Of a stretch of DNA of 23,075 nucleotides, positions 1 to 22,721 are shown one piece after another (the first letter of the stretch is position 1; every line of letters starts with the position of its first letter). The stretch is taken from positions 1-23,075 of the forward strand of contig JAFGPZ010000266.1 in the NCBI GenBank assembly GCA_016935935.1, in the 5' to 3' direction. The notes under the pieces were generated by a model. The model was given only the letters and a program-made list of their open reading frames with translations. It was not told the origin of the DNA and made no database searches. The position numbers and the translations under genes are program-made. The DNA is from Deltaproteobacteria bacterium (GTDB lineage: Bacteria > Desulfobacterota > Syntrophia > Syntrophales > UBA2210).

Positions 1-96
1 TTTCTTCACAGCCTCGGCTGGAAGCACAAGACCTCTCTCAAAGATGGACTTCGTCTGACTTACCAGGATTTTCTAAGAACCAAAGAAACAAAATAG
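1..96 (+). CDS. fcl: GDP-L-fucose synthase, C-terminal end (partial)
   Basis: Frame 1 is open from the window edge to a TAG at 94-96 and encodes 31 residues containing [20 protein letters not shown]. This matches the usual C-terminus of GDP-L-fucose synthase (GDP-4-keto-6-deoxymannose epimerase/reductase), where a 'LGW..K.SL..GL..TY..FL' block ends the protein. The family makes GDP-L-fucose in the cytoplasm, which would make fucose a candidate sugar of this glycan. The last codons (TKETK) already lie in the 9-nt minisatellite that starts at about 78, so the array supplies the end of the protein and its stop codon. Another extended SDR nucleotide-sugar enzyme is possible because only the tail is visible. 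Confidence 0.7.
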
Positions 97-194
97 ACCT
101 GAAAAACTAGGTAAACCAGAGGAACCAAATAATCCAGATAAACTAAAGAAACAAGACAGACCAGATAAACCAGATAGACCAGATAGACGAGAGA
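78..194. repeat. 9-nt tandem repeat (minisatellite), about 13 units
   Basis: From 78 to 194 the sequence divides cleanly into 13 consecutive 9-mers with consensus near RACCAGATA (examples: AACCAAATA, ATCCAGATA, GACCAGATA, AACCAGATA). The units at 159-185 are the most uniform and the first five or six the most diverged. The array overlaps the last six codons of the upstream fcl-like gene and ends before the galE-type remnant. The same unit type recurs at 16099-16143 inside a coding region. Confidence 0.85.
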
Positions 195-11630: not shown

Positions 11631-12770
11631 GTGAACGATCATAAGTATCAGATTTGTGCCAACTGCGTCATGGACACGTCTGATGCGCAAATCACATTCG
11701 ATGCGAATGGGGTCTGCGATCATTGCAATACGTTTTATAAGAAGATCCTCCCCAACTGGCATACGGATGAAAGAGGGCGGAAGACTCTCGAGAATATATC
11801 AGAAAAAATAAAAAAAGCAGGGACGGGCAAAGATTTCGACTGCATCATTGGGCTGAGCGGGGGGAGCGATAGCTCATATGCGACCTATATTGCTAAGGAG
11901 AAACTGGGACTGCTTCCTTTGGTATTTCATGTGGATACAGGATGGAATTCACAAGAGTCAGTGAACAACATCGAGCAATTGGTCAACAAATTGGGTTTGG
12001 ATTTGTTTACGGAGGTTATTGATTGGGAGGAAATGCGGGATCTCCAGTTGGCATTCTTAAAGTCGGGGGTCCCGCACATCGATACGCCGCAGGATCATGC
12101 GATTTTCGCAGGGATGTATAAATTCGCCCGCAAGTACGATGTAAAGTATATTCTGACCGGCGCCAATTACGCGACTGAATGCATCAGGAATCCGGTGGAC
12201 TGGATGTATTACCAGTCCGACTCCACCCAACTTCGGGATATTCACAGACGGTTTGGCGCACAGCCGCTCATTAGCTTTCCCACTACGAGCATTCTCTGGC
12301 ACAAGATATACCTTCCCTATATCAAAGGTATAAAAGTGATCCATCCACTGAACTTCATCCCATACCACAAGAAGAACGCTATGACAATGCTGCGTGATAA
12401 GCTTGGCTGGCAGCTATATCCCCAAAAACATTTTGAATCCCGTTTCACGACGTTTTATGAGGGGTTCTGGTTATACAGGAAATTTGGCTACGATACTAGA
12501 CGCGTTCAGTTTTCCAGCTTGATTCTAACCGGACAAATGTCGCGGGATGAAGCCATCGGAGCGCTGAAGTCTCCACCGCTGAATGATGATACTGCAGCCC
12601 GCGAGTTCGACTTTGTCGCTACCAAACTTGGGATTTCGCGCGAAGAACTTCAGTCTTATTTTGACGCGCCAAAGCGTAGTTATAAAGATTACCGCTCCCA
12701 GGTATGGCTGTATCGGATGGGAACATGGGCTTCCAGGCTTCTTGGCCTCGAACGTGGAGGCAAGCGGTGA
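11631..12770 (+). CDS. wbpG: N-acetyl sugar amidotransferase (WbpG/PseA family)
   Basis: 379 residues. The N-terminus has a zinc-finger-like pair Cys9/Cys12 and Cys29/Cys32 (CANC, CDHC), then the ATP-pyrophosphatase loop SGGSDS at residues 76-81. YILTGANYATECIRNP and HPLNFIPYHKKNAM are typical of the WbpG/PseA family, which converts an acetamido group of a nucleotide sugar to acetamidino using ammonia supplied by HisH/HisF2. It starts with GTG at 11631 after GAGG at 11618-11621. The stop overlaps the hisH start (GTGA), and the three genes form the standard WbpG-HisH-HisF cassette. The sugar substrate is unknown: enzymes for ManNAc3NAcA, pseudaminic or legionaminic acid synthesis are not in the window. 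Confidence 0.92.
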   Translation: MNDHKYQICANCVMDTSDAQITFDANGVCDHCNTFYKKILPNWHTDERGRKTLENISEKIKKAGTGKDFDCIIGLSGGSDSSYATYIAKEKLGLLPLVFHVDTGWNSQESVNNIEQLVNKLGLDLFTEVIDWEEMRDLQLAFLKSGVPHIDTPQDHAIFAGMYKFARKYDVKYILTGANYATECIRNPVDWMYYQSDSTQLRDIHRRFGAQPLISFPTTSILWHKIYLPYIKGIKVIHPLNFIPYHKKNAMTMLRDKLGWQLYPQKHFESRFTTFYEGFWLYRKFGYDTRRVQFSSLILTGQMSRDEAIGALKSPPLNDDTAAREFDFVATKLGISREELQSYFDAPKRSYKDYRSQVWLYRMGTWASRLLGLERGGKR

Positions 12771-13381
12771 TCACGATTGTCTCCTATGGCCTGGGCAATG
12801 TACGTGCGTTTGCCAACAGTTTCGAAAGGATGCATGTATCGGTAAACATCGCAACTTCGGCTCATGAGTTAAGGGATTCTACTCACCTAATTCTACCAGG
12901 TGTGGGTTCTTTCGACTGGGCGGTGCAGCTTTTGACAGCCTCAGGCCTGCGCGAGCCATTGAATGAACTGGTGTTAGAAAAGAAACGACTAGTCCTTGGG
13001 GTATGTGTTGGCATGCAAATGATGGCTCTAAGCAGTGAAGAAGGGGCTCTACCTGGCTTAGGTTGGATTGATGCGCAGGTCAAAAAATTCAGTCAAACTA
13101 CTCTCCCTAAGAGAATTTATCTTCCCCACATGGGTTGGAATGACGTTATACCGAAGCAGAGCGAATGCCTATTTCATGGTCTGGAATCGGGGGCCCGATT
13201 TTATTTTCTACATTCCTACTATGTCACCCCTCGCAAAAAAGATGATGTGCTGGCAATCACGGATTATAACGGTTCCTTTGCTTCCAGCGTCCGTTGCGGC
13301 AACATCTTTGGCGTGCAGTTCCACCCAGAGAAAAGCCATCAGTGGGGCATTCAACTTCTGAAGAATTTCGCCGAACTCTGA
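12767..13381 (+). CDS. hisH: HisH-type glutamine amidotransferase subunit (sugar amidation)
   Basis: 204 residues, class I glutaminase. Cys80 in GVCVGMQMM is the nucleophile, and His186 with Glu188 in VQFHPEKS complete the triad; YGLGNVRAF and LPGVGSF at the front are HisH signatures. I choose GTG 12767, which overlaps the stop of wbpG (GTGA) and has GGAGG at 12756-12760 six bases upstream; the residues IVSYGLGN then fall at the normal HisH position. The frame stays open upstream, but those codons lie within wbpG. It should release ammonia from glutamine and pass it through the HisF2 barrel to WbpG. It is the surface-glycan paralogue (HisH2 type) rather than the histidine biosynthesis enzyme, judged by its neighbours. 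Confidence 0.9.
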   Translation: MITIVSYGLGNVRAFANSFERMHVSVNIATSAHELRDSTHLILPGVGSFDWAVQLLTASGLREPLNELVLEKKRLVLGVCVGMQMMALSSEEGALPGLGWIDAQVKKFSQTTLPKRIYLPHMGWNDVIPKQSECLFHGLESGARFYFLHSYYVTPRKKDDVLAITDYNGSFASSVRCGNIFGVQFHPEKSHQWGIQLLKNFAEL

Positions 13382-13383
13382 CC

Positions 13384-14166
13384 ATGTTGCGTCCGAGAAT
13401 CATTCCTTGTCTGCTGGTCAAGAACGGCGGTTTGGTCAAAACCGTCCAGTTCGCCAATCCCAAATACGTGGGCGATCCCATCAACGCCGTCCGGATCTTC
13501 AACGAAAAGGAGGTTGATGAGCTGATCGTCTTGGACATCGACGCCACCGCGCAGAGTCGAGAGCCTAATTACAATCTGATTAAAAAACTTGCGGCCGAAT
13601 GCCGGATGCCTCTTTGTTACGGCGGCGGTGTCAAAACGGTAGATCAGATAGAGAAGATTATTACTATGGGTGTGGAGAAGGTCGCCATAAGTTCGGCGGC
13701 GATTCAGACGCCCGAATTGATTTCCCATGCAGTCGCGCGGGTGGGTAGCCAAAGCATCGTGCTAGTTACGGATGTCAGGAAGAATGGCGTTGTTGATCAT
13801 TATGAGGTCTGTACCCACAACGGCACTCAGGTGACGGGACTGAACCCAGTGGAGTTTGCCCAAAAAGCGGAGAGGCTTGGGGCTGGCGAAGTGGTAGTCA
13901 ACGCCATCAACCATGATGGCGTCATGAAGGGCTACGATCTGGATCTCGTTGCCGAGGTGCGCGACGCTATCAGTTTGCCAATTACAGTACTTGGCGGGGC
14001 GGGGTCTCTGAGGGATATTGCGGCGTTGATCCGTGCTTTCGGGACCATCGGCGCTGCAGCAGGCAGTTTGTTCGTCTTCAAAGGCAAGTACAGAGCTGTA
14101 TTGATCAATTACCCGAGCCGCACTGAGAAAGATAAGCTTACGATGGATAGCCTTAGGGCTGCATGA
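13384..14166 (+). CDS. hisF2: HisF2/AglZ-type barrel protein for sugar amidation
   Basis: 260-residue (beta/alpha)8 barrel of the HisF family, starting at ATG 13384 two bases after the hisH stop. True imidazole-glycerol-phosphate synthase cyclases need Asp11 and Asp130 (Thermotoga numbering). Here the numbering coincides: Asp130 is present in LVTDVRK, but position 11 is Leu (IPCLLVKNG). GLVKTVQF and PKYVGDPINAVRIFNEKE are the pattern of HisF2/AglZ acetamidino-modification proteins. It therefore probably does not cyclise the histidine precursor but serves as the ammonia channel between HisH and WbpG. It is followed after the stop by a truncated asparagine synthase. Confidence 0.9.
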   Translation: MLRPRIIPCLLVKNGGLVKTVQFANPKYVGDPINAVRIFNEKEVDELIVLDIDATAQSREPNYNLIKKLAAECRMPLCYGGGVKTVDQIEKIITMGVEKVAISSAAIQTPELISHAVARVGSQSIVLVTDVRKNGVVDHYEVCTHNGTQVTGLNPVEFAQKAERLGAGEVVVNAINHDGVMKGYDLDLVAEVRDAISLPITVLGGAGSLRDIAALIRAFGTIGAAAGSLFVFKGKYRAVLINYPSRTEKDKLTMDSLRAA

Positions 14167-14177
14167 AAAAATTTTAA

Positions 14178-14561
14178 ATCAGGTCGTCCAAAACATCTAT
14201 CTGGAACTATGGTTTGCGAAAAGCTTACACCTCCGAGGTGGAGGATAAAACAAAAAAGATTCTTCGTGATGTTGCAAAAGGAATCGTACCTGATAAAATC
14301 ATCCATCGCCCTAAGGCTGGGTTTGGAGCCCCATACCGGAAGTGGTTGAGATATGATCTGAATGAGATGTGGGATGAATTGACTTCGGAAGCTTCGGTTC
14401 GTAAACGGGGGTGGTTTGATCATAAAGCCCTTCAAGAGGCTCGGACGCGAAGCCAGGCCGGAAGAGACGATCTCTATATGCTCCAGTGGGCGATCCTTAC
14501 AATTGAACTCTGGGCAAGACAATTCATAGACCGAAATCCAGCAATGGATTTGATGTGTTGA
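14178..14561 (+). pseudogene. Truncated asparagine synthase (asnB) C-terminal stump
   Basis: The frame is open from after a TAA at 14175-14177 to TGA at 14559-14561. It encodes the end of an AsnB protein: LRDVAKGIVPDKIIHRPKAG then FGAP, a WLRYDL block, RGWFDH and, near the end, AILTIELWARQF. In complete AsnB proteins (about 600-650 residues) this is only the last ~120 residues; the glutaminase domain and the PP-loop are absent. There is no ATG near the front; a TTG at 14214 could give a 115-residue peptide without catalytic parts. The conserved text begins about 15 codons into the open frame, so the break lies between the hisF2 stop and about 14220. I call it a deletion remnant. Confidence 0.82.
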
Positions 14562-14602
14562 GTTTAAAGTTTAACACTTAAAACTTAAAATTTAGAGTTT
14601 CA
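14561..14602. repeat. 7-nt tandem repeat, six units
   Basis: The sequence between the asnB stump and the next gene divides exactly into six 7-mers at 14561-14602: two perfect AGTTTAA units, then CACTTAA, AACTTAA, AATTTAG and AGTTTCA. It is extremely AT-rich and fills the entire spacer up to three bases before ATG 14605, so it also forms the untranslated leader of the bi-domain oxidoreductase; no Shine-Dalgarno sequence is seen there, apart from a weak AGAG at 14594-14597. Confidence 0.8.
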
Positions 14603-14604
14603 TT

Positions 14605-16773
14605 ATGCATCAAGTGATTCAAAATATTCGTAACGGTAGGCTTAGCGTGAAGGAAATTCCGGATCCTGTCGTTAAGCCTGGCCATGTGTTGATCTCTAAT
14701 GCGTTTTCGGTAATATCGGCTGGGACTGAGAGAGCCGCGATTGAACTGGCCAAGAAGTCCCTGCTTGCAAAAGCCAAGGACAGGCCAGATCAGGTTCGTC
14801 GGGTTCTTGAAAAGCTTAAGAACGAAGGAATCCTGAATACGATCTCCCAGGTGCGTGAGAGGCTCGATGAACCCATGACCATGGGATACTCCTCTGCAGG
14901 TGTGGTGCTTGCATGCGGCGAAGGGATTCATGAATTCAAACCAGGCGACAGGGTAGCCTCCAATGGTCCCCATGCCGGAGTGGTTTGTGTACCAAAGCAT
15001 TTATGTGCCAAAGTTCCAGATGGAGTTGAACTCGATTCCGCAGCCTTCACTGTATTGGGAGCGATTGCCCTTCAAGGAATTCGGCTGGCACATCTTGGAC
15101 TGGCTGAAACAGCCTTCATCATTGGCCTGGGATTGATCGGACAACTGACTGTGGCACTGCTTAAGGCACAGGGTTGCCGGGTGTTTGGAATAGATATCGA
15201 TGGAGATAAGTGCCGCATTGCAGAGAAAATGGGTGCAGAGAAGGCTAAATCCGACTTTGAAATAAAAGAGTTAAATGATCTAACTCGTGGGGCAGGAGCA
15301 GATGCTGCTATCATTACTGCCTCCACAAAATCAAATGAGCCGATTGAGATGGCTGCCGAGGTCGTGAGAAAGAAGGGCCGCGTGGTTGCCGTGGGAGATG
15401 TTTCTCTAAACCTTCCCCGCCGTCCCTTCTACTTCAAAGAAGCTGAATTCGTGGTCTCCTGTTCCTATGGCCCGGGTCGTTACGATGCCGAATATGAAGA
15501 ACGGGGGCATGACTATCCAATCGGTTACGTCCGGTGGACGGAACAGCGGAACATGCAGGCTGTGCTCGATCTCATGGTAGCAAGAAAGCTTGATATGTCA
15601 CCATTGATTTCGCACAGGTTCAAGATTGAAAATGCGGAAACTGCGTATGAGATAATTGAAAAAGGTAAAGAGCTTTATCTGGGAATTCTGTTGGAATATA
15701 ACGGCAGTGAAGTCTCTTCCTTAAAAAGAGTAGAGTTAAGAACAGCATCGCAAACCTCTGTCGAAGGAATTGGTGTAGGGGTTCTTGGGGCAGGTAACTT
15801 CGCAAGGTTAGTTTTGCTGCCAGCGCTGGGAAAGATTGGGACAGTAAAACTGCGTGCCTTATGCTCTACGGGTGGATTGTCAGCGGTCCAGAGTGGACAA
15901 AAACTGGGCTTTGAAGTTGCAACGTCGGATGAAGAAGAAGTTTATAAAGACCCAGCAGTCGGAGCCGTATTTATTCTCACGCGTCACAATCAGCATGCCC
16001 GCCAGGTGATTAAGGCACTTCAAGCTGGCAAACACGTCTTCGTCGAAAAACCCCTTTGTCTGAACGAAACAGAACTTAATGACATCATTGCTGCTTATAA
16101 CCAGATAAACGAAAGAGACCAAAGAAACCAGACAAACCAAATACTCATGGTTGGCTATAACCGCCGCTTTTCTCCCATGGCTCTCCAACTCAAATCCTTC
16201 CTGGCAAACAGACACGAACCTCTGGTCATGCATTATCGTGTGAATGCCGGCTATATCCCATCCGATCACTGGGTTCAAGACCCCGAGCAAGGGGGAGGCC
16301 GGATTATCGGGGAAGTATGTCACTTCGTTGATTTCTTAACTTTCCTGACAGGGAATCTACCGAAGAGGGTTGATGCTCGTGCGCTTACCAGTGATGGCCG
16401 TTATCACGACGACAACGTGGTCACCACCCTTGAATTTGCCGATGGATCCCTTGGAACCATCACTTATGTGGCCAATGGGGATGCAGCATTCCCAAAGGAA
16501 CGAGTTGAAGTTTTTGGTGGGGGTATGACTGCGGTGTTAGATGATTTTAGCCGCCTTGAATTGGTGCAACGCGGGCGTAAAAAGGTGTATAAATCTCGCC
16601 TGCGCCAGGATAAAGGGCATCAGGAAGAATGCAACGCTTTTATCGGGGCCATTCGGGCAGGAGGTTCTCTTCCTATTCCGCTTGAAGAACTTGTGGCGAC
16701 CACCTTGACAACGTTTGGAATCAATGATTCACTCCGCAGCGGTACATCGATCGAGTTAGATTTGAAGACCTAA
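14605..16773 (+). CDS. Bi-domain oxidoreductase: Zn-dependent-alcohol-dehydrogenase-like plus Gfo/Idh/MocA
   Basis: 722 residues. The N-terminal half (about 1-365) is a medium-chain dehydrogenase with a VISAGTERA opening and a nucleotide-binding GLGLIG at 174-179. The C-terminal half (about 388-722) is a Gfo/Idh/MocA oxidoreductase with GVLGAGNF (about 392-399) and the EKP motif at 481-483. The fused architecture is a recognised family found in exopolysaccharide loci, often beside heparinase II/III genes; its reaction is not established, but oxidation and re-reduction of a nucleotide sugar is likely. An in-frame 15-residue run NQI NER DQR NQT NQI (499-513), encoded by five 9-nt repeat units, sits just before LMVGYNRRFSP. 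Translation starts right after a 7-nt repeat and lacks a strong ribosome-binding site. Confidence 0.88.
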   Translation: MHQVIQNIRNGRLSVKEIPDPVVKPGHVLISNAFSVISAGTERAAIELAKKSLLAKAKDRPDQVRRVLEKLKNEGILNTISQVRERLDEPMTMGYSSAGVVLACGEGIHEFKPGDRVASNGPHAGVVCVPKHLCAKVPDGVELDSAAFTVLGAIALQGIRLAHLGLAETAFIIGLGLIGQLTVALLKAQGCRVFGIDIDGDKCRIAEKMGAEKAKSDFEIKELNDLTRGAGADAAIITASTKSNEPIEMAAEVVRKKGRVVAVGDVSLNLPRRPFYFKEAEFVVSCSYGPGRYDAEYEERGHDYPIGYVRWTEQRNMQAVLDLMVARKLDMSPLISHRFKIENAETAYEIIEKGKELYLGILLEYNGSEVSSLKRVELRTASQTSVEGIGVGVLGAGNFARLVLLPALGKIGTVKLRALCSTGGLSAVQSGQKLGFEVATSDEEEVYKDPAVGAVFILTRHNQHARQVIKALQAGKHVFVEKPLCLNETELNDIIAAYNQINERDQRNQTNQILMVGYNRRFSPMALQLKSFLANRHEPLVMHYRVNAGYIPSDHWVQDPEQGGGRIIGEVCHFVDFLTFLTGNLPKRVDARALTSDGRYHDDNVVTTLEFADGSLGTITYVANGDAAFPKERVEVFGGGMTAVLDDFSRLELVQRGRKKVYKSRLRQDKGHQEECNAFIGAIRAGGSLPIPLEELVATTLTTFGINDSLRSGTSIELDLKT
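16099..16143 (+). repeat. In-frame 9-nt repeat array inside the bi-domain oxidoreductase gene
   Basis: Five consecutive 9-mers (AACCAGATA, AACGAAAGA, GACCAAAGA, AACCAGACA, AACCAAATA) encode five NQx-like tripeptides. They are the same unit type as the intergenic array at 78-194; AACCAGATA and AACCAAATA occur exactly in both. The array lies between IIAAY and LMVGYN of the Gfo/Idh/MocA domain, a place where relatives, as I recall them, have only about six residues. Confidence 0.82.
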
Positions 16774-22095: not shown

Positions 22096-22428
22096 ATGTT
22101 GCAGACCGGGCGTTATATTTATGCCATTTTCATGTGCCAGCAATCTCTTGAAAAGTGTTTTAAGGCACTCCTTGCATATGGAGAAAAGGAAGTTGTTCCG
22201 ATCCATAACCTACGTCGCTTGGCTGAACTTGCTAATGTTATTCATGAAATAGATGATTCTACGTTGATAAAGATGGATTTTCTTTCAAGTTATTACATCA
22301 ATGCCCGATATAAGGAAGATTTAGAGCAATTATCGAAGGGGATTACAGAATCTGTGGTCCAAGATTTTATCCAATTTTCTGAGGAGTTGATCACATGGCT
22401 TTGTCAAAAGATGAAGTTGTCAAGATAG
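22096..22428 (+). CDS. HEPN domain protein, 5' end probably damaged
   Basis: 110 residues from ATG 22096. MLQTGRYIYAIFMCQQSLEK, IHNLRRLAELA and SSYYINARYKEDL match the PF05168 HEPN domain (helices 1-4) that pairs with MNT nucleotidyltransferases; such HEPN proteins are toxins or RNases in several systems. HEPN proteins normally begin about 20 residues earlier with a helix ending 'D..TAKAML'. Here codons for TAKA (22084-22095) do precede the ATG, but an in-frame TGA at 22081-22083 cuts them off, and the text upstream (YLLNDKLL in another frame) looks like the lost start. I see no canonical R-x4-6-H motif. The gene overlaps the following MNT gene by 34 nt. Confidence 0.75.
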   Translation: MLQTGRYIYAIFMCQQSLEKCFKALLAYGEKEVVPIHNLRRLAELANVIHEIDDSTLIKMDFLSSYYINARYKEDLEQLSKGITESVVQDFIQFSEELITWLCQKMKLSR

Positions 22429-22721
22429 CCAGCGGATTCCTTGAGATCATTCGCCGTGAACACGATGTGCGGCAGGCTTACCTGTTTGGTTCTTTTGCCA
22501 AAGGAACAGCAAGAGATTATAGTGATGTGGATCTTGCCATTGTGTTGGGGTCTTTGGATCGGTCTGAAACATCGCCTTTTCATGAGGATTTTATGATCTT
22601 CCATAAAGCACAAAAATATAATTCATTATTAGAAGTCGTCTGTTTTATCGAGGGTGAATTTGATCAAGATGGCGGGGCTTTAGCTCAATTAATTAAAAAA
22701 GAGGGAATAAGATTGATTTGA
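22395..22721 (+). CDS. MNT-type minimal nucleotidyltransferase (MntA-like antitoxin)
   Basis: 108 residues. GSFAKGTARDYSDVD (about residues 32-46) is exactly the GS-x10-D-x-D signature of MntA-type nucleotidyltransferases, which can AMPylate and so silence the partner HEPN protein. The length is typical. ATG 22395 lies inside the HEPN gene and both are in different frames, so they are co-transcribed and translationally coupled; this overlapping HEPN-then-MNT order is common. The protein seems complete and intact, unlike its partner. Confidence 0.88.
   Translation: MALSKDEVVKIASGFLEIIRREHDVRQAYLFGSFAKGTARDYSDVDLAIVLGSLDRSETSPFHEDFMIFHKAQKYNSLLEVVCFIEGEFDQDGGALAQLIKKEGIRLI

Follow-up and report, generated by a model that had tools for sequence, protein, structure and literature searches.

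How does a conserved enzyme gene come to hold, within its reading frame, a short tandem repeat of a family that also lies between genes? The question is raised by a bi-domain oxidoreductase gene in a 23,075 nt stretch of a Deltaproteobacteria contig (JAFGPZ010000266.1, positions 1 to 23,075; this whole stretch is called the window below). The features concerned are as follows.

14605..16773, + strand: bi-domain oxidoreductase gene, zinc alcohol dehydrogenase (ADH)-like plus Gfo/Idh/MocA, 722 aa (Pfam, fold)
16099..16143, + strand: array of five 9-nt units in frame (residues 499-513), located where a helix meets a strand in the Gfo/Idh/MocA Rossmann domain
15697..15786, + strand: interdomain linker, about residues 365-394, second recurrent array site in relatives
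78..194, + strand: intergenic array of 13 units, consensus about RACCARAYA (Tandem Repeats Finder and matrix)
14555..14600, + strand: separate degenerate 7-nt array, immediately 5' of the oxidoreductase start codon

The in-frame array and its intergenic relative

The five units at 16099-16143 are, in order, AACCAGATA AACGAAAGA GACCAAAGA AACCAGACA AACCAAATA. They encode NQI NER DQR NQT NQI and are directly followed by LMVGYNRRFSP; the position, frame and units claimed in the earlier note are confirmed. Tandem Repeats Finder reported period 9 for both arrays, with 4.8 copies and a score of 44 at 16099-16141 and 12 copies and a score of 76 at 78-185. Within the 45 nt of the gene array 26 of 36 positions are identical at a lag of 9, a level reached in 0 of 2000 codon shuffles. 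The claimed kinship with the 78-194 array was evaluated using a matrix built solely from the 13 intergenic units, with the gene units excluded. The best five-unit match in the gene starts at 16099 and scores 59.3 bits. Codon-shuffled versions of the gene give a maximum of 9.5 bits (59.3 was reached by 0 of 2000), and the window minus both arrays gives a maximum of 1.1 bits on the + strand and -5.2 on the - strand. The kinship is therefore upheld for units that are similar, not identical, the consensus of the loop unit differing from the intergenic consensus by more than one base. Short tandem units lying head-to-tail at several places are found in the window's two arrays, as in the dispersed 7-9 nt tandem repeats to which, we presume, the name STRR applies (STRR/LSSR type). 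The degenerate array just 5' of the start codon is TTTAAAA-like and represents a second repeat family beside the 9-nt one.

The array in the oxidoreductase gene is real and well supported, and it is part of a broader phenomenon than first described. Six registers are possible for the 9-nt unit. In forward frame 1 a T at the pyrimidine position creates stop codons; forward frame 2 reads P-D/N-K/R, and translations of the reverse strand are mostly hydrophobic (YLV, IWF, SGL). The register in use gives polar N/D-Q-I/T tripeptides, both in the window gene and in the gene of locus L192 described below.

Pfam matches in the protein are ADH_N (85-131), ADH_zinc_N (178-294), GFO_IDH_MocA (389-499) and GFO_IDH_MocA_C3 (546-638), so that the array begins at the residue where the GFO_IDH_MocA match ends. 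Fold matches to both classes, zinc ADH and Gfo/Idh/MocA, place the protein among the bi-domain oxidoreductases; compared with other members, both domains are alike and the loop text alone differs. All chains among the PDB matches listed (the best 60 of 187 and the best 50 of 1997) are shorter than 450 residues, thus none of these has the two-domain form. An AlphaFold2 model from 40 homologues (mean pLDDT 83.3, pTM 0.52) has a helix at 488-507, coil at 508-513 and a strand at 514-516. According to this model, the first part of the array would extend the helix and the remainder would form the turn before the strand. The pLDDT is 70 for block 501-510 and 94 and 92 for the flanking blocks; in the linker it is below 50 at 367-373 and 383-386. 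The window gene's own linker has no array. In the Rossmann topology EKP lies at the C-terminal end of strand 477-480, and the array turn enters the next strand N-terminally; because of this topology the turn can be expected to point away from the cofactor. Together with the pLDDT values, it suggests that the loop is surface exposed.

The gene lies in a polysaccharide-type locus with genes for a NAD-dependent epimerase, a methyltransferase, UDP-GlcNAc 2-epimerase, a class-I amidotransferase, HisF-like proteins and proteins with asparagine-synthase domains. Consecutive genes at 11631-14166 code for a weakly NAD-synthase-like product, the class-I amidotransferase and a HisF-like protein, and resemble the WbpG-HisH-HisF trio of O-antigen loci. 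A 115-aa frame at 14214-14558, between the HisF-like gene and the oxidoreductase, matches the end of the asparagine synthase profile (262-354 of 354) and looks like the remnant of a larger gene. Overlapping frames with a HEPN domain and a nucleotidyltransferase domain at 22096-22721 resemble a HEPN-MNT toxin-antitoxin pair.

Recurrent array sites in related enzymes

The loop was recognised in 118 of 120 homologous proteins listed (the two others were left out) and is 9 to 64 residues long, with a median of 16. Three or more consecutive N/D/H-Q/E/K/H tripeptides occur in 7 of the 118 loops, against a shuffled mean of 0.03 and maximum of 1. The earlier note had expected homologues to have a shorter loop without N/Q-rich text. 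This agrees with the N/Q type in 7/118 only and with the solved relative 3ezy, in which 9 residues are absent at the array position in a pairwise alignment. An equal-length N/Q-rich loop shared by distant homologues, which would speak against the proposal, is not seen. Even relatives with 78-85% protein identity have unrelated loop text. Many other loops resemble translated heptamers: at an offset of 7 residues, loops have a self-identity of 0.123 vs 0.064 in the remainder of the proteins, and a protein rule for heptamer loops selects 31 of 118 vs a shuffled mean of 12.9 (maximum 21), a high background which makes single heptamer labels on the protein tree uncertain.

This quick tree comprises 51 proteins (9 of 60, not over 600 aa, were dropped) and leaves out the loop and the linker. 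The three loop types need 12 changes on it vs a shuffled mean of 21.0; they are therefore clustered but have switched. The row nearest to the window by path, P0007, has a heptamer-type loop, and P0002, the other close protein of the 9-nt type, pairs with P0007 with 89% support on a branch that is not starred. All six rows of the 9-nt type fall within one 14-row clade. Three changes are needed for them, and only one of these is enforced by starred branches, so this loop type may have a single origin. The close relatives with such loops are represented by protein sequences only. No homologue with more than 60% identity was found in 395 genomes (the phylum of the L074 genome) or in the classes of genomes G110 (42 genomes), G394 (85) and G232 (46), and a scan of viral contigs found no close relatives.

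At the DNA level, the first gene set was drawn from 80 named loci, 35 loci obtained by searching one phylum and one class, and the window. Fourteen of these 116 loci, six of them among the named 80, were dropped as the gene pattern was unmatched. L027 and L084 are the same gene; L084 was left out of the density and unit-sharing counts and L027 out of the array map and the trees. Both were counted in the first test, in which the loop was the most repetitive window of the gene in 8 of 102 genes vs 2.5 expected (in the median gene 7.7% of the other windows scored at least as high). The test is weak, since arrays are also present elsewhere in the same gene, and array mapping replaced it. The 101 distinct open-frame genes were searched for arrays with periods of 7-11 using one fixed score cut-off, which gave 24 arrays in 16 genes. 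In window residue numbering, 11 of them lie at 486-516 (the loop), 7 at 370-393 (the linker), 2 at 135-142 and 1 each at 105, 322-336, 528-542 and the N-terminus. The loop or the linker thus holds 18 of 24 arrays (binomial 5e-15 for sites picked after looking).

The repeats at loop and linker of the relatives are mostly 7-mers. The units include ACTCAAA (L086), ACTCATC (L014, L096), CTCGTCC (L091), ACCGCTC (L084), AATCGCT (L021), AAACAGT-like ones (L023, L032), 8-mers (L104) and the 9-mers of the window. Across lineages it is the location within the enzyme that stays constant, while the repeat occupying the loop or one of the further sites changes.

A second set was analysed with the two sites named in advance. 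It came from 301 genomes (the phylum of the L021 genome), 46 genomes (the class of G232) and three more loci; 32 of 34 loci were recognised and removal of 4 duplicates left 28 genes. These have 18 arrays within the gene body, 13 of which (in 11 genes) are at the loop or linker, where 8.6% would be expected (p = 8e-11). Leaving out L138, which had been seen earlier, 11 of 16 are at these sites (p = 5e-9). The linker site noted beforehand was 370-393 and the script used 368-394; all 13 array midpoints are inside the noted ranges. As the second-set genes share ancestry with one another and with the first set, the binomial treats them as more independent than they are. The remaining 5 of the 18 arrays lie at 137-144, 323-336 and 524-539, which are minor sites of the first set. 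In the model, 322-336, 484-518 and 524-542 run across helix-to-strand junctions, and 366-394 is the linker.

In a FastTree phylogeny of these 101 genes, 11 changes are required to account for the 11 loop arrays (starred branches force at least 8 of them) and 7 for the 7 linker arrays. Label shuffling gives a similar requirement (mean 10.7 for 11 loop rows), so the loop arrays are not clustered by descent. In the tree of all 129 genes, 13 changes account for 14 loop arrays and 14 for 17 linker arrays. These counts represent the upper end, since weak arrays were scored as absent by the threshold. All trees were made by quick or FastTree methods, and L104 and L106 kept less than half of the columns in the 101-gene tree.

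Array density was determined in 74 of the 80 named loci for periods 7, 8, 10 or 11. The oxidoreductase genes have 0.103 arrays per kb (17 in 164 kb, within 11 of 74 genes), the sequence outside ORFs 0.117 (22 in 188 kb) and other ORFs of at least 150 aa, which were called mechanically and may include false ones, 0.016 (15 in 923 kb). The oxidoreductase density is thus close to the intergenic one and six-fold above that of other ORFs. Among ORFs of at least 400 aa, arrays are borne by 10 of 73 oxidoreductases vs 6 of 326 others (Fisher p = 8e-5). Genes besides the oxidoreductase can also take arrays. In the polysaccharide-type locus L156 (6863-15371) heptamer arrays are present in three different open frames: two arrays in that of a DegT-family aminotransferase, three in that of a UDP-GlcNAc 2-epimerase and three in the oxidoreductase.

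Source of the repeat units

The earlier note proposed that the 9-nt family spreads and that genes can absorb it. Spread within the source genome rests on the window's two arrays. Elsewhere the family was detected, as three consecutive units with at most one mismatch, in 28 of the 395 genomes from the phylum of the L074 genome. It is therefore widespread but patchy, with 1 to 126 pattern matches per positive genome (126 in G394); with two mismatches allowed, it was found in 0 of 8 genomes behind other loci. The reversed pattern is useless as a control, as an array read backwards still matches in another register. In 20 stretches picked for holding the family, 25 of 34 loosely tagged arrays lie between ORFs of at least 120 aa and 9 inside such ORFs. 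Two of the nine are long in-frame arrays in L192:6251-7321 (+ strand; NQRNQTNQINQTDEIDQ...), which encodes a protein with a DnaJ domain above the cut-off and a SnoaL-like match below it. This second in-frame case, in another genome, supports the proposed absorption by genes; the seven further ORFs may be false. The L192 gene is situated near genes for CpsB/CapC and Wzz-type proteins, in a capsule/exopolysaccharide-type locus. In loci L184-L187 of genome G093 many different 7-, 8- and 9-nt tandem families lie side by side between ORFs.

Thirteen loci have arrays both inside and outside the gene. Of their 19 gene arrays, 7 have a unit that, allowing one mismatch, recurs in an array of the same stretch lying outside the gene (three of the seven matches are in L104/L156). 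Permuting the loci gives a mean of 1.26, and 4 of 2000 permutations reach 7. In L050, AGTCAGA is present both upstream of the gene and inside it. In G232 (L104/L156), the oxidoreductase frame contains AACCTTG at two places and the epimerase frame next to it at a third, all within 3.3 kb. The window's own loop unit is not among the seven shared ones. No array outside the gene was found in the stretches read for L023, L027, L032, L058, L074 and L096. Outside the gene, the genome of L086 contains the unit of this locus at a single place when up to two mismatches are allowed. Of 20 genomes searched for one loop unit, 3 contained it, so that this unit is not common at that stringency.

Our preferred explanation, to which we assign a probability of about 0.78, is that short repeats are repeatedly established in frame at a few permissive sites, come from the repeat pool of the host and persist as near-neutral passengers. 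It starts from what was observed, namely the array itself, its relation to the one between genes, the recurrence of sites, their changing content and the excess of units shared with arrays outside the gene. A small set of sites in the enzyme would be permissive, and 7-9 nt tandem repeats drawn from the host's dispersed pool would establish there again and again, in frame. In the lineage of the window the occupant would be the 9-nt RACCARAYA family, in the register giving polar N/D-Q-I/T tripeptides. The units would arrive by copying from arrays elsewhere, through template switching or recombination, rather than all by slippage from a local seed. The window array may then be a tolerated passenger with a near-neutral effect on the enzyme, forming a longer helix end and a turn before the next Rossmann strand, opposite the NAD/EKP site.

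A bolder version would regard the 7-9 nt repeats as mobile-like, with host-specific families copied from array to array, coding ones included, and with landing sites in this polysaccharide-locus enzyme that, in several phyla, are filled and overwritten in frame. We consider this version tentatively, as a possibility with the odds somewhat against it. If true, it would provide a cross-phylum tandem-repeat counterpart of the palindromic elements of protein genes and a natural map of permissive sites.

Alternatively, the arrays could have grown in place: in an unconstrained loop slippage would act on a chance seed, and the likeness to intergenic arrays would reflect a mutational bias shared across the host genome. 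Permissive sites alone would explain the array positions, and the units of L014, L016, L021, L037, L086 and L091 are unmatched among the outside arrays read. However, the window array fits a specific 9-nt consensus also found in other genomes, units recur in nearby arrays above permuted pairing (7/19 vs 1.26), and the AACCTTG unit of G232 stands twice in the oxidoreductase frame and once in the adjoining epimerase frame. We therefore regard growth in place as rather unlikely.

It is improbable that the arrays are contingency switches, i.e., that slippage turns a surface-polysaccharide enzyme on and off (phase variation). Near-perfect 7-mers such as ACTCAAA in L086 and GTTCAAG in L104, where one unit more or less shifts the frame, and the polysaccharide-type loci around the window gene and that of L104 would suit such switching, but the 9-nt unit of the window keeps the frame on gain or loss and its units have diverged (26/36 lag-9 matches). 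An open frame was an inclusion condition in both gene sets, thus open frames are no evidence against switching. Classed as a phase-variable repeat, the window array was rejected on its unit length and 26/36 lag-9 identity; some relatives' 7-mers would qualify.

A selected function, with the N/Q-rich stretch kept, e.g., for partner binding or an oligomer contact, is highly improbable: seven of 118 homologues do have an N/Q-type loop and the six on the tree share one 14-row clade, but relatives of 78-85% identity differ entirely in loop text and the loop can be anywhere between 9 and 64 residues long. Chance low-complexity coding or an assembly error can be practically dismissed, having the modest length of the array in its favour and nothing more, and being contradicted by the shuffle tests and by the same loop type in proteins from other contigs.

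Relation to known repeats and implications

The Rickettsia palindromic element (RPE) appears comparable. In the review PMC2229807 (on Ogata et al., 2000) RPEs are described as dispersed intergenic repeats which are also found in frame in conserved Rickettsia protein genes, 105-146 bp long and with terminal inverted repeats; the RPE-bearing Gmk is active, with a changed substrate affinity. As with RPE so described, one repeat family is present outside genes and in frame in a conserved gene (78-194 and 16099-16143 in the window; L050). Unlike RPE so described, the arrays here consist of tandem units of 7-9 nt, belong to many unrelated families and, in several phyla, converge on the same small number of positions in a single enzyme. 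With 45 nt of direct tandem units and no palindrome of about 100-150 bp with terminal inverted repeats, the window array is not an RPE.

Heptamer direct repeats such as TAACTGA are dispersed in Beggiatoaceae and cyanobacteria, according to the accessible part of PMC4679880, which also speculates that inserts might be tolerated between the parts of modular proteins. Read in reverse, TAACTGA gives LSVISYQ, nearly the loop-helix text SKQLSVISKQL of two Chloroflexi copies (L023, L032). As far as that part of the paper goes, the heptamer work deals with sets of one heptamer and possible regulation and mentions no recurrent coding sites within one protein family, such as those described here. It also states that heptanucleotides are the commonest class of long simple sequence repeats in most prokaryotic genomes, that slippage has been proposed for these and that units in multiples of three are likeliest in coding regions. 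In contrast to that description, 7-mers, which are not multiples of three, occur here in frame in a conserved enzyme at near-intergenic density. Among the titles and abstract openings listed in literature searches, none reports recurrent short-tandem-repeat capture at fixed sites of one enzyme across phyla, which is weak evidence.

Overall, the phenomenon can be described as tandem-repeat capture at permissive protein sites, in which the step from the repeat pool to the coding site would be one of copying. To our knowledge, how 7-9 nt tandem families multiply in bacterial genomes is unsettled. An enzyme with several sites refilled in different lineages constitutes a comparative system for asking whether, and at what rate, such repeats are copied from elsewhere or grown in place. 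Annotators who meet N/Q-rich or S/N/Q/L-rich loops in proteins of this kind should look for repeat DNA before assigning a function to the loop. The arrays also list, as tested by nature, insertion sites that a two-domain enzyme permits, and they show where repeat DNA can settle in a protein without breaking the frame.
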